From contig JAIPAP010000026.1 of the NCBI GenBank assembly GCA_021740045.1, positions 1-40,659 on the forward strand: 40,659 nt of DNA. Reading direction: 5' to 3'. Shown here piece after piece: positions 26,011-37,341 of this stretch. Source of the DNA: Bacteroidales bacterium (GTDB taxonomy: Bacteria > Bacteroidota > Bacteroidia > Bacteroidales > JAIPAP01). A program made the position numbers and the translations under genes. The notes below the pieces were generated by a model. It worked only from the letters and a program-made list of their open reading frames with translations, searched no databases and was not told the origin of the DNA. Every line of letters begins with the position of its first letter. The stretch's first letter is position 1.

Positions 26011-27246
26011 TTAGTCTTTTAGGCAACGCACGGAGAAACCGTAATCCTTATTGTAATTGTAGCGGCCCACCGACGGATAAAAGTAATCGAGGAATCGGTA
26101 CCAGGCTTTCAAACTACTACTCTCTGATGAGGACCACCAATAACCGCCGCCGCTATAACCGCTGAAGGAGCCGTAGATATTCCGGTGGCCCGCCGGCAAG
26201 GCCGTAAAGCCAAATTCATCGGAACCGTTGCCGTTATTATACCATCCGCTGGTACTTTTCAGCTTTTGACCGGCATTGTAACCTCGGTAACCGGTTTGTT
26301 CCCATTCGGGATCAGGGTATCCATACTGACTATCTACAGAGCCTTCCAGTATCATCCATTCTTCATCGGTGGGGGTGTGCCAGCCGGGCGGACAAATGCC
26401 TTGTACTCCCTGGTTGGTGATGTATTGCATCATTTCATCCCACTGGTAAAGGCCTCCGTATTCGTCGCAATTGGAGAGGTTATCATCATAACAATATTTC
26501 TCTATGATGCTGTTATCCTGCATTTGATCATTGCCGGGAATTAACGCTCCAACATTCAAATTTTCAGCCATCCAACATTGGTTGCCTATCATAACGGCTG
26601 CATACTCCTGCCCATCGCGCGAATCGATAAAGGCGGAGGGGCATTCGGGTTGGCTTTGGCCGGGGTAAATCAATTCACCATCGCCCAGCATTTTCACCAG
26701 GTAAAACTCCCCTGGTTGGGCTTCGCCTATGCCATTTATCCAGTTAGGACCTATTTTATTTATTGCATCCCCATACATATTGCGAATAAATTCTAGGTTT
26801 ACACCTATAATGCTTTCAAAAGCTTCCATTGCATCTTTAGGCTCGGTGGGCAAATAACTTACAAACTGGTATCCGGTCTGCACGGGTATAGGTGTGGCAG
26901 GGGCAATAACCTCACCATTCAGGAGAAGGGTTTCCGCTCCGATCATCCTGAATAAATACCCTTCGGTGGTGTTCCAATCGCCAATGCCATTAATCCAATT
27001 CGGTCCAATTTTCTGGATAATATCCCCCTGGGCATTGCGAATAAATTCCACGTTTTCTCCTAAAACATTTTCCAGCACCACCAACATATCGGGGTCATCC
27101 GGAATGATGTAGGTGGATACAAAGCGATAGCCGTTTTCCAAGTCAATAGTTTGACCGGTAAGGTTGTTTTCTTTGGGATTGCTGTTCTGCCCGTATATCA
27201 TTTGAAAGGCAAGACAGATTGCGAATATGCCGATGCTTTGTTTCAT
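26011..27246 (-). CDS. Secreted FISUMP-domain protein with two N-terminal repeats
   Basis: The frame is open to 27453, but the ATG at 27246 was chosen because it starts a good signal peptide (MKQSIGIFAICLAFQMIYGQ), giving 411 residues. Two tandem repeats of about 75 residues follow (GYRFVSTYI... and GYQFVSYLP..., each with EFIRN and KIGPNWINGIG). The C-terminal 200 residues form a FISUMP domain (Fibrobacter succinogenes major paralogous domain): GNQCWMAENLNVG, YGGLYQWDEMMQY, GICPPGWHTPTDEEW and the closing YGFSVRCLKD. It is exported and probably surface-associated; binding partner unknown. It faces away from a second FISUMP protein at 33077-35182, with the accessory genes between them. Confidence 0.85.
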   Translation of the reverse strand: MKQSIGIFAICLAFQMIYGQNSNPKENNLTGQTIDLENGYRFVSTYIIPDDPDMLVVLENVLGENVEFIRNAQGDIIQKIGPNWINGIGDWNTTEGYLFRMIGAETLLLNGEVIAPATPIPVQTGYQFVSYLPTEPKDAMEAFESIIGVNLEFIRNMYGDAINKIGPNWINGIGEAQPGEFYLVKMLGDGELIYPGQSQPECPSAFIDSRDGQEYAAVMIGNQCWMAENLNVGALIPGNDQMQDNSIIEKYCYDDNLSNCDEYGGLYQWDEMMQYITNQGVQGICPPGWHTPTDEEWMILEGSVDSQYGYPDPEWEQTGYRGYNAGQKLKSTSGWYNNGNGSDEFGFTALPAGHRNIYGSFSGYSGGGYWWSSSESSSLKAWYRFLDYFYPSVGRYNYNKDYGFSVRCLKD

Positions 27247-28104: not shown

Positions 28105-29184
28105 ATGTTCAATTATTTTAAAGATTTTAAAAACGAAAAGTTCCATGATAACAACTTGATTAATCTCATCGGATTGCTTTCACAGAATGAGAGATTGGAT
28201 TTATTTGAAAATCTAATTGGAATAAATAATGGAACGCTAGGTAATTTTATTAGAGGAAAAAGTAAGAGAGATTTTGATGTACACCTAAACTTTGAAAACT
28301 ATCATGTTATAATTGAGACAAAAGTTGATTCAGCTGAGGGTGAGAGAAATAACATGTGGCAAACAGATAGGATTTTTCAAGATTATAGCAAAAACTGGAA
28401 TAACAAAAGCCTAATATTAATTTACTTAACATACGGTCTTTCAGAATATTACATTAAAATAAGACAAGATGGTTCTTATTCAAATGGTCCATTTTCTACT
28501 TCCTTCCAACATATCGGCCTGAAAGAGATAACAAATTTCATCGAACGTTCAATAGAAGAATGTGTGATTGACGATTACGGTATTTTAACTTGGTTAGATT
28601 GGTTAAAATTTGAATTAACTAAAAGAGATGATAATCAGTATTTCCTTGAAAATATTAATAATTTACTGATTCGATATAAAGCCACACTAAATCTAACCGA
28701 TTACCCAGTAAACAGACTTAATATTTTCGTCCCGGAATTCACAATTCCTTTTTATTTCAACTTATGTAAAAGTTGGAATAATTTGAACAACAACAAGATT
28801 GGTAAAGCCTGCTTATACCCGATGGGAAGGCGCTCATCTCAAGTAAATGATTCAATTTTGAATTTTTGGGAATTATGGAATTGTAAACAGCCATTAACCG
28901 CAAAAGGGCTTTTACATGACAATTCACTTTACTTTGAGTTTAATGAGGATTTTAATTTGCACTTAAAAGCGAAAGCTGATGTGCCTAATTTAAACCAATT
29001 AAAAGAACTTATTAGCTCAAATAGAGAAAATCTTTCTATGGGCTTTACTGCCACACAAGAGAACTATAGACAAGGCACTTACGTATTATTTGAATGGGAC
29101 TTAAAAGTACTATCAAATTCTATAGAGACAAATGTTGAAAATATTAGAAAAGTAATTGAAAACGCCATTGAAGTATTGGAATAA
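28105..29184 (+). CDS. PD-(D/E)XK nuclease-superfamily protein
   Basis: The 359-residue product has a PD-(D/E)XK signature near its start: Asp56/Asp58 (KRDFDVHLNF) and, 12 residues on, Glu71-Thr-Lys73 (VIIETKVDSAEG), followed by a helix with NNMWQTDRIFQDY. This is the layout of the PDDEXK_4 group, often found in defence islands. The C-terminal 200 residues (FNLCKSWNNLNNNKIGKACL, LYFEFNEDFNLHLKAKADV) were not recognised and may sense a partner or DNA. The gene is AT-rich and first of the accessory block; an 80-bp repeat begins 14 nt after its stop. Confidence 0.72.
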   Translation: MFNYFKDFKNEKFHDNNLINLIGLLSQNERLDLFENLIGINNGTLGNFIRGKSKRDFDVHLNFENYHVIIETKVDSAEGERNNMWQTDRIFQDYSKNWNNKSLILIYLTYGLSEYYIKIRQDGSYSNGPFSTSFQHIGLKEITNFIERSIEECVIDDYGILTWLDWLKFELTKRDDNQYFLENINNLLIRYKATLNLTDYPVNRLNIFVPEFTIPFYFNLCKSWNNLNNNKIGKACLYPMGRRSSQVNDSILNFWELWNCKQPLTAKGLLHDNSLYFEFNEDFNLHLKAKADVPNLNQLKELISSNRENLSMGFTATQENYRQGTYVLFEWDLKVLSNSIETNVENIRKVIENAIEVLE

Positions 29185-29197
29185 AATGTACTATGCC

Positions 29198-29305
29198 CAA
29201 TCGAGCGGGCAGCCCCGCCATTAATCCCAATGCAAATAAGGGCTGACGAGGAGAACCTCCGACTAAAAATATTCATCCTAGCAATTCTAACATTACCCTG
29301 CCTCA
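29198..29305 (+). repeat. Accessory-block repeat, copy R1
   Basis: It starts with CAATCGAG. The first 80 bases align without gaps to R2 at 32480, about 65 of 80 identical by eye, including GGAGAACCTCCG and CTAAAAATATTCATC. A weaker match continues to ACCCTGCCT. Inside, CAGCCC can pair with GGGCTG, and GGAG with CTCC. The rest of the gap up to 29525 holds only a GTGCCG/CGGCAC hairpin near 29335. Confidence 0.8.
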
Positions 29306-29525
29306 GACGAAACGGTTCATTAAGTTGTGTCTATGTGCCGGAATACCGCGGCACACAGATATGGGGAATTTGTTTGTAGATAACCCGTATAGGGATGTAA
29401 CCGCATTTCTCTATCCTAAGAGTATATGAACCAGTTGCATATAGGCTACCACCTTATTAATTAAATATTATTTAATTGGAGTTAAAAATTAATATCGTTT
29501 AGCTAACAGTTTAGATTTTATTTAA

Positions 29526-29533
29526 TACCTTTG
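29526..29533 (+). promoter_or_regulatory. Putative -7 box of the sce7726-sce7725-RES operon
   Basis: TACCTTTG matches TAnnTTTG and lies 103 nt before the first ATG of the operon, giving a leader of about 97 nt. No clear -33 TTG is seen at the usual spacing. Confidence 0.45.
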
Positions 29534-29636
29534 AAAGAAAGATTGATAAAACACTATATGGTTATGCGCCAAAAAACATTTTAATTCATGGGAATCACAA
29601 TAAGACTAGTTAAAATATATTTATTAATTTCGTCTT

Positions 29637-30506
29637 ATGAAAGCTAGCATAAAATATAGCATAAATCAATTGAGAGACTATTCTGATCTATTTTCTAGAA
29701 GCTTCGCTCTTGAATGGCTGAAAGGGGATTTCACCTCATTAGATTTCAAAATAGCTAGGTACGACTCTAACTGGGTCAGACGCAAAGACAATTCTTACTG
29801 CAACTATTTAAAATACGTCTATAAAATCTTAGAAAAGCACTATAAAAATGAATATATTCTAAAAAACTCTTTTCTTAACGAATGGCTAATTAAAGAACTT
29901 GGAAAAACAAATTCTCAAGTTTTCAATGAATTCAAGATTGGAAATGCCATTGCTGATCTGGTAATGTTTAATGGTACTTCAAAAGTTTTCGAAATTAAAA
30001 CTGAACTGGATTCTGGCAAACGATTAACCTCCCAGATAAAATACTATAAGAAGGTTTTTAACCAAATTTATTTAATTGTTCCATCATCAAAAATTCACCA
30101 ATATCAAGACCACGATAGTAATGTTGGAATAATTACATTTGACGAGAATTCTATAAGTTCATTTCGTGTCATCCGAGAGTCTGAAACCAACTTAAATATT
30201 GATTTTGAAACTATTATGGGAATACTCCATACGACAGAATACAAAAGGATTGTAGAAGAGCACTTTGGCAAGCTACCAAAAATGACAAGCTTTAGCCAAT
30301 ATAGCATTTGCAAAGAATTAATATCGAAGATATCCCCTGTTGAATTAAGCCTTTATTTCAATGAATTAATGAAAAAAAGAAATTCATGTACTGCCTTGTC
30401 AACAAGAAATCACAAAGAGTTTAACCAATTAAGTCTAGCGTTAAAAATGACTCAACAAAAACGCAAGGACATGATTAACTCTTTAAAAGAACCAATAAAT
30501 ATTTAA
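29637..30506 (+). CDS. sce7726-family protein (PD-(D/E)XK-like)
   Basis: The 289-residue product resembles the sce7726 family, a protein of unknown function usually encoded next to sce7725. Its middle contains a PD-(D/E)XK-like core: Glu98 (FNEFKIGN), Asp107 (AIADLVMFN) and, after 11 residues, Glu119-Ile-Lys121 (KVFEIKTELDSGKRL), followed by a helix with Gln (TSQIKYYKKVF). All candidate catalytic residues are present, so nuclease activity is possible but not shown for the family as far as I know. It is first in a three-gene operon; the next ATG is 2 nt after its stop. The AT-rich base composition points to horizontal origin. Confidence 0.8.
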   Translation: MKASIKYSINQLRDYSDLFSRSFALEWLKGDFTSLDFKIARYDSNWVRRKDNSYCNYLKYVYKILEKHYKNEYILKNSFLNEWLIKELGKTNSQVFNEFKIGNAIADLVMFNGTSKVFEIKTELDSGKRLTSQIKYYKKVFNQIYLIVPSSKIHQYQDHDSNVGIITFDENSISSFRVIRESETNLNIDFETIMGILHTTEYKRIVEEHFGKLPKMTSFSQYSICKELISKISPVELSLYFNELMKKRNSCTALSTRNHKEFNQLSLALKMTQQKRKDMINSLKEPINI

Positions 30507-30508
30507 GT

Positions 30509-31444
30509 ATGTATTACCCTCTATTACGATCTAGACAATTTGAATTAATAACTCTACGAGAACTTGCAAATGAAAATGCAACTCAGGGATTTGTAATGCC
30601 TATTATTGAACCAGTCAAAGAGACCCATAATAACCTCAATTTGGCTTTTGATGTATTCGAAAAAATGGGCCAAAAGGCATATTTAATTGTAAATCCTGAA
30701 AATGGGGAAATGTCTGGAGATGGAACGCATTATCTTGATTACCTGGAAAAAAAACCTACTGGTGTATTCCTTCCTGCTTTTAGATATCGTTTAAATGGTA
30801 AGTACATATTAGATGCAATCCAAGACTATAACCTTAACGAAGTAATGATTATTTGTTCGAATGAGGTGGGTTCAGATAATTCTGATTTTACATCGGTTGC
30901 AACTAGTGCCTCAGTAACAGCTTTTAATGTAGGAGACCCTGACAGAAACAGATCTTTAAAAAGATACTTATTTAAGTTAGGAAAGATATTCATAAGACTT
31001 GATGACCCTTTTGAACGCCAAACGAGAAATAGTGACTTCTTATCTATAGGAGCCCATCCTTTTACAGAAGAACACTTGTACTATAAGGAGGAAGGTTTTT
31101 ATGGTTTTTCTGACTACACTGTTCTTCCAAGCGAATATATAGAGGGGGGAAGCACCCCAAGAGCTGTAGTAATTCACCTCACATATTTATTTAAAGACAA
31201 ACAAATTTGGATAAGGCATTTTACATCTACAACAAATGATTCAATTGCCAATGTTCAAGGTAAGTTTGCCGAAGCGGCTGAAAAAGCCGTCAAATACTGT
31301 CATAAAAATAATTTAAGCAATACAGCTATTAAAGAACTAATTAGTCATTATGATGAACAGCATTATCCTGGACTTGGTACCATAAAAAAGATTTCAATGA
31401 AAAACCACATTTTAGTAGTTGTAGATTATTTGAGAAACAAATAA
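30509..31444 (+). CDS. sce7725-family protein (phage beta-protein-like)
   Basis: The 311-residue product matches the sce7725 family by its start (YYPLLRSRQFELITLREL) and its pairing with sce7726. The pattern Y.P.L..R..E...L..L followed by VMPIIEPV recalls phage beta proteins (PF14350), so a related barrel-like fold is plausible. Other marked stretches are FIRLDDPFERQTRN, HPFTEEHLYYKEEGFYGFSD and EGGSTPRAVVIHLTY. No catalytic motif can be named. Spacing of 2 nt upstream and 4 nt downstream indicates tight co-translation with the sce7726-like and RES genes, and hence probably a common complex or pathway. Confidence 0.8.
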   Translation: MYYPLLRSRQFELITLRELANENATQGFVMPIIEPVKETHNNLNLAFDVFEKMGQKAYLIVNPENGEMSGDGTHYLDYLEKKPTGVFLPAFRYRLNGKYILDAIQDYNLNEVMIICSNEVGSDNSDFTSVATSASVTAFNVGDPDRNRSLKRYLFKLGKIFIRLDDPFERQTRNSDFLSIGAHPFTEEHLYYKEEGFYGFSDYTVLPSEYIEGGSTPRAVVIHLTYLFKDKQIWIRHFTSTTNDSIANVQGKFAEAAEKAVKYCHKNNLSNTAIKELISHYDEQHYPGLGTIKKISMKNHILVVVDYLRNK

Positions 31445-31448
31445 TAAA

Positions 31449-32477
31449 ATGTATACGTGTGACAACTGTTTTTCAGACAAAGAATTAAAAGCCTATATCC
31501 AATCTTCTGGAGTAAGAGGAGACTGTGATATTTGTAATTCATCAAACGTCTATAGAATAGATTTAATAGAATTACTTGATTTCTTCCAAGAATTAATCGA
31601 CAACTTTAGGAGAACTGAAAATGGTCAATTATTAAAATCAAAAATACAAGAAAGCTGGAGTTTCTTTTCTTCTCATGATAATGCTTCTAAAATATTGAAC
31701 TTTGTTATAAAAAAAGTAAATACAGAGATCGAGAGTGCAACTGATTTAGTTGATTACACAGAGGACATTATCGCCAACTATTCTTATTGGGATACACTCA
31801 AAGATAAAGTAAAATGGAAAAGACGGTTCCTATCTGACCTGGAAATCATTCAAGAATTGGGATGGGACGGTTTTTTCAATACTCAATTTGAATTATCTCC
31901 AGAAGACAAGCTTTATAGAGCGCGTGTTCATCATCAAAGTGGGATGAGCGCTTATGCTCCTGAAAATATGCTATGCCCTGAACCCAGTAAAGCAAGTGGA
32001 GGAAGAGCAAATCCATCAGGAATTCCATTTTTATATTTAAGCGATAAGGAAGATACTGTACTCTATGAAGTTAGAGCCTCGTATTTAGATGAAATAAGCA
32101 TTGGAGAATTTCATTTAAAAGAAGAATTAGATAAAGTTAAAATCGTTGATTTTACTGAGGATACTGTGCTTTTTCAACCAGGAAGAATAACAAATACTAT
32201 TAAATCAAGATTACTCAGGGAAAAAATCAGCAGAGATCTTTCTAAGCCTATGAGAAGGTATGATTCGGAAATAGAATATATTCCTACTCAATTCATTTGT
32301 GAATACATAAAGGTTTATACAGGTGCAAATGGAATAAGATTTAGTAGTTCTCTGGATCCTGAAGGTAACAACCTCGTAATTTTTGACCAATCGATAATGC
32401 AATGCTCTAATGTTATAGTAAAAAAAGTTAATTACTTAGATCTAAGTGCAATTGAGATAAAGATAGCAAGCCGATAG
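31449..32477 (+). CDS. RES-domain protein with N-terminal zinc-finger-like HEPN/RES domain
   Basis: The 342-residue product begins with two CxxC pairs (Cys4/Cys7 and Cys26/Cys29), probably binding zinc, followed by a helical region as in the HEPN/RES N-terminal domain. The C-terminal half is a RES domain: LYRAR (Arg157/Arg159), SGGRANPSG, FLYLSDKEDTVLYEVR (Tyr196, Glu207) and RFSSSLDPEGNNLVIF. Known RES toxins destroy NAD+ by glycohydrolysis or phosphorolysis, and the Arg/Tyr/Glu set expected for this is visible. It is last in the operon. In RES-Xre pairs the antitoxin is a small Xre protein; none is found here, so the sce genes or the N-terminal domain may restrain it. An 80-bp repeat starts 3 nt after the stop. 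Confidence 0.83.
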   Translation: MYTCDNCFSDKELKAYIQSSGVRGDCDICNSSNVYRIDLIELLDFFQELIDNFRRTENGQLLKSKIQESWSFFSSHDNASKILNFVIKKVNTEIESATDLVDYTEDIIANYSYWDTLKDKVKWKRRFLSDLEIIQELGWDGFFNTQFELSPEDKLYRARVHHQSGMSAYAPENMLCPEPSKASGGRANPSGIPFLYLSDKEDTVLYEVRASYLDEISIGEFHLKEELDKVKIVDFTEDTVLFQPGRITNTIKSRLLREKISRDLSKPMRRYDSEIEYIPTQFICEYIKVYTGANGIRFSSSLDPEGNNLVIFDQSIMQCSNVIVKKVNYLDLSAIEIKIASR

Positions 32478-32479
32478 TA

Positions 32480-32588
32480 CAATCGAGTGAACAGCCCCGC
32501 TAGTAGTCCCGATGTGAACCGGGGCTGCCGGGGAGAACCTCCGTCTAAAAATATTCATCGGGACAAATCTCACACCATCCTGCCTAAG
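32480..32588 (+). repeat. Accessory-block repeat, copy R2
   Basis: Gapless relative of R1 over 80 bases (CAATCGAG to TTCATC), in the same orientation, with weaker similarity up to CATCCTGCCTAAG. It folds well: CAGCCCCG pairs with CGGGGCTG across 22 nt, and GGAG with CTCC just after. Together R1 and R2 enclose exactly the sce7726-sce7725-RES operon and its promoter. Confidence 0.8.
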
Positions 32589-33076: not shown

Positions 33077-35182
33077 ATGAAAAAATTCCGAATAATTCCC
33101 GCTATGGCTGTTTTGCTTGCAACAGCTTTTGTGTTAAGTACACAGTCATGTAAAAAAGATGATGATACACAAGTGCCCGATAATATTGTGGCAGAATCAA
33201 CCAAAGTAATCGAAAAGGATAATTGGCAGAATAAGTTGGAAGAGGTAGATACTAAAGATTATACTTTTCGATTTAGCGATAATCCGGGTTTACGTGAAGG
33301 TGATATTTTAGTAACGGAAGCTGATGGTGGGTATCTGAGAAAAGTTACTAATATTACTGTAAAAGATGGAAAAACGGTTATTGAAACTGAGTTTGCTTCT
33401 ATTAGTGAGGCAGTTGAAAGAGCGCATGGAAAAGCTGAGAATTTTCAATTGATACCCGAATTTGAAAATGATAGTCTTTGGCTTGGCGAGGGTGTTAACT
33501 TTGCTAACAACAAAAACAATGAGTTAATTTCAACAGAACTGGAGATTGATTTGGTGTTGTATGATAAAGATGGAAATTATCAAACAACTAATGATCAAGT
33601 TAAATTGGCAGGTGGCTTTGAATTGCAATCAGATTTTAGCGTTGAAATAGATATTAAATGGTTTGAATTACAATACCTATATGTGGGCTATGATTTCATT
33701 GAATCCACCAATTTATCTTCCAGCATTGGTGAAGGGATTAATTATACCACTCAAAACAAAATAGCTGTAATTCCCTGTGGAACAATTATAATTTACGCAG
33801 GTATTCCTATCGTAATCGAGCCTTATATCGATTTTTATGCGGGCTGTCAGGTTGGAACATCCGTAGAATTAGAAGCGAGTGTAGAACAATTGTATGAATA
33901 TACAGCATCATTAACCTATGATGAAGGTAATTGGAACAGCGAAAAGGATATTAATAAGCAAATTGATGCTCAAGAACCAGACCTTGAAGGTGAAGTTGAA
34001 GCCAAGGTTTACATTAAGCCCCAACTAAGATTTAAGGTTTACCAATTCGTTTCCCCGTATGCTAATGGGGAAATTTTTGCGAAAGCAGAGACTGAAATGA
34101 TGCCCGATATAATCCAATGGGATATTGCTGCTGGTATAGGAGCTCATGCAGGTGTAAAAATGCAAATCTTTGAAAAGACATTGGTTGATTTTGAAGCTAC
34201 TCTTTTTGAGCTAGAATGGGTGATTTTGAGCGGAGAGACCGGTGGAAGTAATACACCTCCAACTGCCTCATTTACTATTAGTCCAGGTTCGGGTAATACA
34301 TCAACAATGTTTAATCTCGATGCTTCGGCATGTAGTGATAACCAGGATATGACAAGTCAGATGGAAGTACGATGGGATTTTGATGGAGATGGCACCTGGG
34401 ACACCGAATTTACCACTGATAAAACAGAAGATTATCAGTATTCAACAGAAGGGACCTATACCGTTAGACTAGAAGTAAAAGATACGGGAGGACTGACTGA
34501 TATAGCAACACAAAATATAACTGTTAGTGATGGTGGTGGAGGTAATGGCTGCGATGGTATCACCCAAGTGGATTATGGAGGCCAAGTATATAACACTGTT
34601 GAAATAGGTGACCAATGTTGGTTAAAAGAAAATTTGAACATAGGAACCATGATCTCCGGCGATAAAGAAATGAAGTATAATGGAACCATTGAAAAATACT
34701 GCTATGATAATGATCCAGAAAAATGTAACGAATACGGGGGTCTTTATCAGTGGGATGAAATGATGCAATATACCACTCAACCTGGCGTGCAAGGAATTTG
34801 TCCGAATGGGTGGCACATTCCTACGGACAATGAGGGGATGTTACTAGAAGGTACTGTGGATAGTGAATATGGTTATCCTGACCCCGAATGGGAAAAACAA
34901 GGATGGCGAGGTTCTGATGCTGGTTACAATTTAAAAAGCACAACTGGTTGGTATGACGATGGCAATGGATCAGATGCATTTGGCTTTAAAGCCTTGCCAG
35001 GTGGTTATAGATTGAATGATGGATATTTCTATTATATAGAGGAATATACACGGTTTTGGATGTCAACTGAGAAGGATAACAATCAAGGGTGGAGACGTAC
35101 AATTAGGTCTGATTTTGAAGGAGTAACTCGCTTATATAACGAAAAAACCAATGGATTTGCTATTCGCTGCCTTAAGGATTGA
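33077..35182 (+). CDS. FISUMP-domain lipoprotein with PKD domain
   Basis: The start at 33077 (MKKFRIIP) gives a lipoprotein signal ending LSTQSC, followed by an acidic KKDDD stretch that is common in surface lipoproteins. The 701-residue product then has about 350 residues of unrecognised, beta-rich sequence (LREGDILVTEADGGYLRKVT, EPYIDFYAGCQVGTSVELEA), a PKD domain at about residues 395-485 (VRWDFDGDGTWDTEF, GTYTVRLEVKD) and a C-terminal FISUMP domain from about 495 (GDQCWLKENLNIG, YGGLYQWDEMMQY, GFAIRCLKD). That domain closely resembles the one at 26011-27246. The gene is transcribed away from that paralog. Confidence 0.85.
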   Translation: MKKFRIIPAMAVLLATAFVLSTQSCKKDDDTQVPDNIVAESTKVIEKDNWQNKLEEVDTKDYTFRFSDNPGLREGDILVTEADGGYLRKVTNITVKDGKTVIETEFASISEAVERAHGKAENFQLIPEFENDSLWLGEGVNFANNKNNELISTELEIDLVLYDKDGNYQTTNDQVKLAGGFELQSDFSVEIDIKWFELQYLYVGYDFIESTNLSSSIGEGINYTTQNKIAVIPCGTIIIYAGIPIVIEPYIDFYAGCQVGTSVELEASVEQLYEYTASLTYDEGNWNSEKDINKQIDAQEPDLEGEVEAKVYIKPQLRFKVYQFVSPYANGEIFAKAETEMMPDIIQWDIAAGIGAHAGVKMQIFEKTLVDFEATLFELEWVILSGETGGSNTPPTASFTISPGSGNTSTMFNLDASACSDNQDMTSQMEVRWDFDGDGTWDTEFTTDKTEDYQYSTEGTYTVRLEVKDTGGLTDIATQNITVSDGGGGNGCDGITQVDYGGQVYNTVEIGDQCWLKENLNIGTMISGDKEMKYNGTIEKYCYDNDPEKCNEYGGLYQWDEMMQYTTQPGVQGICPNGWHIPTDNEGMLLEGTVDSEYGYPDPEWEKQGWRGSDAGYNLKSTTGWYDDGNGSDAFGFKALPGGYRLNDGYFYYIEEYTRFWMSTEKDNNQGWRRTIRSDFEGVTRLYNEKTNGFAIRCLKD

Positions 35183-36086: not shown

Positions 36087-36866
36087 ATGGACAAATTTGG
36101 ACACATAGAAGTTAGAGTCCTTGGGAGCAAAGGAAATTTGAAGCTTTCACAAGACAGTTATGACGTGAAAGAGATAATTTCTATGCTTCAAAACATTGAA
36201 GATTTATTATATCCAACCAATAAAAAGGACAGGCCATTAATTACTTATGATTTGAAAGAAGGCTCCGTTAAACATATTTTTAAAACAAGTATTCAAGCAA
36301 TAATAGGTTTTAGTGCTATTCTGGCCCAAATCCAAAAATCGAATTCAATTGATTTCTTGGAATTAAGGACAGCCCAAGCGATCGAGAATATTCAACATTT
36401 CTCGTATCAGAAGAACTACGATTTTGAGATTAAAACCTCAATTGACCCTGATACAGTTTTAATTATTAATCCGAGCTCCAGGTTTTTCCGAACCGAAAAT
36501 ATTTGGGTTGAAGCCGAATTGTATTTTTATGGCACCTTGACAAATGCTGGAGGGAAAAGCAATATCAATATACATTTAGACACAGCCGAATTTGGGTCAC
36601 TAACAATTGATACCGACAAGGAATTTCTGAAAGAGCAAGAAGAAAACATGTTGTATAAAAAATTTGGTATCAGAGCCCTAGGCGAACAAAATATTGAGAC
36701 TGGAGAAATTGATAAAAAATCATTGAGACTTGTTGAGTTAATTGATTTTGCCCCAGAATATGATGATGCATACCTTAATTCATTAATTAGAAAGGCGAAA
36801 GGCAATTGGAAGGGCATTAATCCTGACGAATGGTTAAATGAAATTAGAGGGGATTATAATGCATAG
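36087..36866 (+). CDS. Unrecognised partner protein of a PIN nuclease
   Basis: I do not recognise this 259-residue protein. It has no signal peptide; it begins MDKFGHIEVRVLGSKGN, contains one moderately hydrophobic helix (TSIQAIIGFSAILAQIQ, about residues 72-88) and a beta-rich second half (ENIWVEAELYFYGTLTNAGG, INIHLDTAEFGSLTI). Its last codons overlap the start of the PIN-domain gene (ATGCATAG), so both are translated together. By analogy with VapBC-type units the upstream gene could be the antitoxin, but it is three times as long as VapB proteins and shows no DNA-binding motif, so it may be a targeting or sensing partner instead. Confidence 0.65.
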   Translation: MDKFGHIEVRVLGSKGNLKLSQDSYDVKEIISMLQNIEDLLYPTNKKDRPLITYDLKEGSVKHIFKTSIQAIIGFSAILAQIQKSNSIDFLELRTAQAIENIQHFSYQKNYDFEIKTSIDPDTVLIINPSSRFFRTENIWVEAELYFYGTLTNAGGKSNINIHLDTAEFGSLTIDTDKEFLKEQEENMLYKKFGIRALGEQNIETGEIDKKSLRLVELIDFAPEYDDAYLNSLIRKAKGNWKGINPDEWLNEIRGDYNA

Positions 36867-37341
36867 TGTTTTGTTAGATACTAGCTTTTTCATTAGGCTT
36901 TTAAATGACGAGGATAATTTGCATCAAAATGCCCGAGGGTATTTTAAGTTTTTTCTGGATCAAGAAACAATCATGAAGGTTTCGACCATTTCAATAGCTG
37001 AGTATTGTGTAAAAGGTTCAATCGAAGACCTACCATTAATGAATGTTCAAATAGTTCCTTTTAATCTTGATCATGCGAAGAAAGCTGGAGAGTTTGCAAA
37101 TATAATCTTTGAAGAAAAGCAATTATCGGCAGAAGACCTGAAACCGCGAGCTATTATACCTAATGACTCTAAATTATTTGCCCAAGCAGATACTGATAGG
37201 TCAATCACCCATTTTGTAACTTCTGATAGCAGATCAGAAGGAACTTTGAAACTTCTGAAAAAGAAAATAAAACCAAGATTTGAAATTATAGATATAAATA
37301 ATCCCTATAATCAAGTTTTCGGTGTACTTGATATTAAATAG
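36859..37341 (+). CDS. PIN-domain nuclease (VapC-like)
   Basis: The start at 36859 (MHSVLLDTSFFIRLL) was chosen because AGAGGGG lies just upstream and the PIN fold begins here; an ATG seven codons earlier is possible. The 160-residue product has the PIN acidic residues in order: Asp in LLDTSFF, Glu in ISIAEYCVKG, Asp in DSKLFAQADTD and Asp in FVTSDSRSEG. PIN toxins cut tRNA or rRNA. The family tail after about residue 130 (IKPRFEIIDINNPYNQVFGV) is typical of stand-alone PIN proteins. It ends 19 nt before the third repeat copy (R3). Confidence 0.8.
   Translation: MHSVLLDTSFFIRLLNDEDNLHQNARGYFKFFLDQETIMKVSTISIAEYCVKGSIEDLPLMNVQIVPFNLDHAKKAGEFANIIFEEKQLSAEDLKPRAIIPNDSKLFAQADTDRSITHFVTSDSRSEGTLKLLKKKIKPRFEIIDINNPYNQVFGVLDIK

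Follow-up and report, generated by a model that had tools for sequence, protein, structure and literature searches.

The question raised by this locus is what three closely packed genes, the first two from families that lack an assigned function and the third encoding a RES-domain protein, do together. They lie in the window, the 40,659-nucleotide stretch of DNA analysed here, and the original prediction read them as a candidate defence operon in which a nuclease-fold or sensor pair controls an NAD+-depleting effector. The first gene (29637–30506, plus strand) encodes a 289-residue sce7726 family protein with a predicted PD-(D/E)XK nuclease fold, an assignment based on the open reading frame, NCBIfam, a fold model, conservation, and a match to the PADLOC model "cll". 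The second gene (30509–31444, plus strand) encodes a 311-residue sce7725 family protein with a TIM-barrel-like fold, as judged from the open reading frame, NCBIfam, a fold model, and conservation. The third gene (31449–32477, plus strand) encodes a 342-residue RES protein for which Pfam, relatives, and conservation indicate a zinc ribbon, a HEPN/RES-NTD1-like segment, and a RES domain. The gaps of 2 nt (sce7726/sce7725) and 4 nt (sce7725/RES) agree with the original prediction. The start of the first gene does not: it had been placed at 29526, which is 111 nt too early, since an in-frame TGA occurs at 29532 and translation can begin no earlier than the ATG at 29637. The three genes are indeed AT-rich: their GC content is 32.5%, that of the window as a whole 43%, and among 379 stretches of the same size they rank 12th.

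The first protein belongs clearly to NCBIfam family NF033832 (171.3 bits, E = 1.9e-50; curated cut-off 70 bits). Its predicted nuclease core (29928–30047, plus strand), assigned from conservation and predicted secondary structure, comprises Glu98, Asp107, Glu119-x-Lys121, Asp125, and Gln133-xxx-Tyr137. Glu98, Asp107, Glu119, and Lys121 stand exactly where they had been noted, and they are nearly invariant in 58 relatives: Asp107, Glu119, and Lys121 are kept in all 58, and Glu98 in 55 (Gln in the other three). Gln133 is also found in 58 of 58 and Tyr137 in 57. The AlphaFold2 model (pLDDT 93.6) places strands at residues 94–101, 104–111, and 115–120, followed by a helix at 130–138. Its top structural neighbours in the PDB include 3dnx (best E = 1.6e-4), SfsA, NucS/EndoMS, EcoT38I, and the Shedu protein SduA, all with modest TM-scores. 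SfsA, NucS/EndoMS, EcoT38I, SduA, and similar neighbours are members of the PD-(D/E)XK superfamily, and the QxxxY motif is linked to RecB-type nucleases. By fold and by its E...D...ExK(...QxxxY) motif, sce7726 is thus a predicted member of this superfamily with putative nuclease activity. The protein also matches the PADLOC model "cll" (PDLC02989, E = 5.7e-16), as do all 58 relatives (best E = 3.3e-26); we searched for the system behind this obscure model and could not trace it.

The second protein is a full-length member of NCBIfam family NF033831 (302.8 bits, E = 3.8e-90; curated cut-off 60 bits). As the original prediction stated, neither NF033831 nor NF033832 carries a function. The model (pLDDT 93.9) resembles a TIM barrel, and Foldseek relates it weakly to numerous barrels (PDB TM-scores near 0.4); the best viral structural match is an uncharacterised Gordonia phage protein (TM 0.69). 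Eight polar residues (R7, E34, N62, D202, H237, S240, K293, and H300) are invariant in an alignment of relatives and look like a putative catalytic or binding site. The description of this gene as similar to a phage beta protein holds in part: the window protein scores 20.8 bits against Pfam Beta_protein (PF14350), below the gathering cut-off of 27 bits, whereas 15 of 61 relatives match at an E-value of 0.01. No PADLOC 2.0 model matched sce7725.

The third protein passes the Pfam threshold for RES (58.9 bits against 23.2, E = 8e-16), and the domain was matched in 58 of 58 relatives. The noted CxxC pairs and Arg, Tyr, and Glu residues are all at their places. The former make up a CxxC...CxxC zinc ribbon (Cys4, 7, 26, and 29; 31458–31535, plus strand) that is conserved in 54–57 of 58 relatives. 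The RES domain (31911–32405, plus strand), delimited by Pfam, conservation, and hhalign, carries the putative active-site residues R157, R186, Y196, S300, and N308, in addition to R159 and E207. The first five are each present in 58 of 58 relatives and are equivalent to R23, R82, Y93, S184, and N193, the active site of NatT (PMC11535050); hhalign against a classical RES domain, which is related to solved RES toxins, places R186, Y196, S300, and N308, and R157, outside the alignment, was assigned by motif position. In the intervening segment, the window protein scores 15.2 bits against HEPN_RES_NTD1 (PF18870), below the cut-off of 27.4 bits; with an E-value limit of 0.01, this model is matched by 27 of the 58 relatives (best 1.1e-9). 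RES domains are known to convert NAD+ into ADP-ribose-1''-phosphate and to arrest growth (PMC9503650, PMC11535050), so an effector is the natural reading of gene 3, and by analogy with the RES family this protein probably degrades NAD+. Against PADLOC 2.0 the RES proteins gave one weak match among 58 and none otherwise, and sequence-profile searches of the PDB with all three proteins returned nothing significant. Thus, both a nuclease core and a RES pocket, whose joint absence from structural models was to count against the original prediction, can be recognised: the first by fold neighbours and motif, the second, judged by sequence, by its invariant active-site residues. Other Bacteroidota loci (L161 and L165–L169) encode zinc ribbon, NTD1-like, and RES proteins that lack sce7725 and sce7726 and have different neighbours, which suggests that this type of effector serves several systems.

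We then asked how regularly these three genes occur together. A profile search of GTDB genomes with sce7725 returned at least 543 encoding loci. Among the best 80, RES or RES fragments follow directly downstream in 77, and sce7726 lies directly upstream wherever the contig extends. Since these best 80 loci are biased towards the window, genomes were also drawn regardless of the locus. Full-length sce7725 occurred in 14 of 395 Bacteroidota genomes, 13 of which contain the triad (12 of 13 without the window). The Pseudomonadota draw contained three such genomes in 319, all with triads, including the draw centre with a split RES frame. Six of 289 Bacillota genomes encode full-length sce7725, again all in triads; one is the draw centre, another has a split RES frame, and a further genome contains a decayed copy. 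Omitting the window and the two draw centres of Pseudomonadota and Bacillota, RES adjoins full-length sce7725 in the same gene order in 19 of 20 unselected genomes (12/13 Bacteroidota, 2/2 Pseudomonadota, 5/5 Bacillota). A search from the RES side of the same 395 Bacteroidota genomes gave a matching picture: the 13 triads, and no other loci, take the first 13 places with at least 299 bits each, after which the score falls to 218 bits. Across 100 triads, the second gene mostly follows the first at a spacing of −19 to +11 nt, and the third follows the second at −4 to +15 nt. On the tree the triad spans about ten phyla, as named in record titles and with several members from metagenome bins; isolates alone place it in Bacteroidota, Pseudomonadota, Bacillota, and Actinomycetota. 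This recurrence in GTDB loci and unselected draws, in fixed order and with near-zero spacing, eliminates the possibility that RES adjacency is due to chance or unique to this genome, the latter of which would have refuted the original prediction.

No fourth component emerged: no further gene family occurs in more than 3 of 59 loci within 4 kb. The predicted absence of the usual Xre antitoxin agrees with this survey, as no Xre-type gene recurs over this distance. Distances between homologues correlate among the three triad genes (Mantel r 0.87–0.89, 0 of 999 permutations), which indicates that they moved together. A Psychrobacter copy is among the nearest relatives of the window triad, which points to movement across phylum borders. 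Records of Chryseobacterium, Kaistella, and Gelidibacter (L091, L094, and L095) share an identical sce7725 protein, through either recent transfer or contamination.

Plasmids, integrative elements, and prophages all carry the triad. Among annotated records, plasmids included, it is present in Rhizobium, Pseudorhizobium, Shinella, and Moraxella, and in a Salmonella integrative element; copies on viral contigs adjoin genes that we identified by eye as terminase or repressor genes. In E. coli, 18 of 5426 genomes carry a triad that is 97–98% identical to the Salmonella query copy. In four E. coli representatives the triad is cargo of an integrative element with similar mobilisation genes and varying adjoining cargo. 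One representative type combines it with a cyclase, a TIR protein, and a caspase (CBASS-like), another with a Kiwa-like KwaB, a type I restriction–modification system, McrBC, and a phosphorothioate-dependent nuclease, a third with BREX and AbiE, and a fourth with SIR2 and restriction–modification genes. Bacteroidota were surveyed in 11 unselected neighbourhoods, in which 116 neighbours match 333 PADLOC models at 1e-10, compared to 40 models for 112 control proteins from regions picked regardless of the triad, mostly in the same genomes; this is a tally of models from 11 regions, and many of these models hit the same protein. Among the PADLOC models listed, type I specificity subunits number five near triads and none in controls, and type I methylase models up to seven near triads and one in controls. 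Taken together, the E. coli islands and the excess in unselected Bacteroidota neighbourhoods put the triad in the company of known defence genes, as predicted, and this context supports a defence role well.

The relation between RES and the other two genes is one-sided. After removal of duplicates and of loci near contig ends, an intact RES gene accompanies an intact pair 80 times and a broken pair never, and 17 intact pairs stand without an intact RES gene (Fisher p = 0.0003, a value that overstates independence because the loci are related; loci with a broken pair are few, namely 5). The tree requires at least seven label changes for RES-less copies and at least three for RES-broken copies. 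E. coli UTME-9 and one genome of the Bacillota likewise combine a frameshifted RES gene with an intact pair. Repeated loss of RES next to an intact pair is what would be left by a harmful effector that is held by its partners. RES-less pairs persist in prophage and other lineages with the nuclease motif E98/D107/E119/K121/Q133 intact, so the pair must have a function of its own, and control of RES cannot be its sole role. Two variants deserve mention. In a Lachnospiraceae bin (L069, 10941–12909), the place of RES after the pair is occupied by a macrodomain-like protein that has an additional C-terminal portion, and an ADP-ribosylglycohydrolase-like gene comes next; both, as assigned by eye, are linked to ADP-ribose. 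An Enterococcus plasmid (L012) and a "Listeria phage" contig (L015) share a two-gene form in which the first gene is strongly divergent and part of the nuclease motif is missing.

How may these three proteins work together? The sequences present a unit of fixed gene order with conserved active sites, a mobile life, defence neighbours, and an intact RES gene only where the pair is intact. From these features we infer that the triad is probably a mobile three-gene abortive-infection system against phages. The RES protein, with its zinc ribbon and HEPN/RES-NTD1-like segment, would be the effector that phosphorolyses NAD+, and perhaps NADP+, and thereby halts growth. The PD-(D/E)XK-fold sce7726 and the TIM-barrel-like sce7725, with its enzyme-like or ligand-binding site, would form a sensing and control core that keeps RES silent and frees it upon meeting phage DNA or a product of infection. 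In addition, sce7726 probably cuts nucleic acid. Our proposal is hence a nuclease core that senses infection and has a suicide effector attached to it, and either the nuclease or RES may be the main protecting activity. The abortive-infection-type reading of the original prediction is supported in that defence genes are near, the triad recurs, and no Xre-type gene belongs to it.

Three other explanations must be weighed against this proposal. The pair could be a self-sufficient, restriction-like defence that cleaves DNA or RNA, with RES as an optional back-up suicide gene for cases in which the nuclease fails and under no direct restraint. The persistence of two-gene lineages that keep E98, D107, E119, K121, and Q133 speaks for such an arrangement, as do several RES-less pairs at typical cargo positions in prophages, beside terminase or repressor genes, and an invariance of the sce7726 motif that equals that of the RES pocket. 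Against this, 19 of 20 unselected cases have RES, at near-zero or overlapping spacing, and no intact RES gene stands beside a broken pair; together these observations suggest dependence on the pair. We consider this explanation unlikely.

Still less likely, in our judgement, is a three-part addiction module in which the pair is the antitoxin and which keeps plasmids and integrative elements stable without sensing infection. In its favour, RES acts as the toxin in RES-Xre modules (PMC11535050), the triad travels on plasmids and integrative conjugative elements, and the intact toxin occurs only with the intact pair. On the other hand, the operon and its surroundings lack a recurrent gene for a DNA-binding antitoxin, neither the conserved nuclease site nor the invariant polar site of the barrel resembles an antitoxin, and the defence neighbourhood is strong. 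A housekeeping or stress function in NAD+ or nucleic-acid repair metabolism, unrelated to phages, could account for the enzyme-like conservation of all three proteins; it seems very improbable in view of the patchy distribution (14/395 Bacteroidota, 18/5426 E. coli), the mobility, and the defence company. Returning to the abortive-infection system, we can also imagine a more specific form, in which nuclease and barrel jointly sense infection and make or bind a signal that licenses the RES NAD+ phosphorylase, so that RES would be controlled without an Xre antitoxin. The barrel would then represent a novel type of enzyme for sensing or signalling and the triad a widespread, undescribed immune class, a tentative idea that we hold to be possible and rather doubtful.

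Comparison with known systems helps to delimit the triad. It shares with the RES-Xre type II modules NatR-NatT, ParST, and MbcTA a RES domain with the equivalents of NatT R23, R82, Y93, S184, and N193. In contrast to these modules, it contains no Xre/DUF2384 antitoxin gene and is therefore not a RES-Xre module; RES comes third after nuclease-fold and barrel-fold genes, and the RES protein has an extra N-terminal zinc ribbon and NTD1-like segment. A three-part architecture of zinc ribbon, HEPN/RES-NTD1, and RES, like that of the third protein with its NTD1-like segment, was described as a toxin fusion, at that time a predicted RNase, by Anantharaman et al. (2013, PMC3710099), where the description of this fusion does not include an sce7726-sce7725 operon. 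Genes 1 and 2 are clear members of the NCBIfam families, to which the RES partner is an addition. The predicted outcome, NAD+ loss and growth arrest, is shared with TIR- or SIR2-based systems such as Thoeris and DSR2, whereas the NAD+-cleaving fold differs (RES/ART) and no recognised sensor protein is held in common. Likeness to PADLOC "cll" is limited to sce7726. The open-access literature yielded only genome lists, RES-Xre studies, or domain surveys and no description of the triad, which may have been described earlier in subscription papers or preprints. The triad hence appears as a candidate NAD+-targeting abortive-infection system with an unfamiliar control pair. It joins two function-less NCBI families and a RES subfamily into a single mobile unit of three genes, which ranges over about ten phyla and in E. 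coli lies beside known defence systems. Should it act in defence, the system has no name yet, and both its NAD+-destroying effector, unlike TIR and SIR2, and its control, unlike Xre antitoxins, would set it apart. Its presence in E. coli makes it directly open to phage challenge.

The window copy itself sits among mostly ordinary genes, outside any clear defence island, which speaks against the proposed defence role; it has a nuclease-like gene upstream and a PIN-domain pair downstream. The former (28105–29184) is AT-rich, and its 359-residue product, which weakly resembles PDDEXK_4, the UpaP162 restriction enzyme family, and PADLOC PDC-M15A, is perhaps a second defence nuclease. The downstream genes (36087–37341) overlap; one product, of 259 residues, matches nothing in Pfam, and the other scores slightly below the PIN-domain cut-off. 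They are possibly toxin–antitoxin-like. Two copies of a 109-nt direct repeat, found by sequence comparison and 77% identical, flank the triad at 29198–29306 and 32480–32588 (both plus strand). Each begins a few nucleotides after a stop codon, the downstream copy 3 nt past that of RES. The repeat has no further copy in this genome, and none turned up in 294 other Bacteroidia genomes or on viral contigs. It has no match in Rfam, and z-scores of −0.11 and −1.52 do not indicate a structured RNA; an insertion trace, a cassette-like site, or a terminator are candidate explanations. A 395-nt inverted repeat (73% identity; 26195–26589 and 34604–34998) corresponds to a pair of related, oppositely oriented genes that bracket the low-GC block containing the triad; one of them encodes a Fib_succ_major domain. 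Finally, another contig of the same genome (L001) encodes a second, classical RES protein, whose gene overlaps by 4 nt with an upstream 143-residue gene that, by eye, resembles an Xre-type antitoxin.
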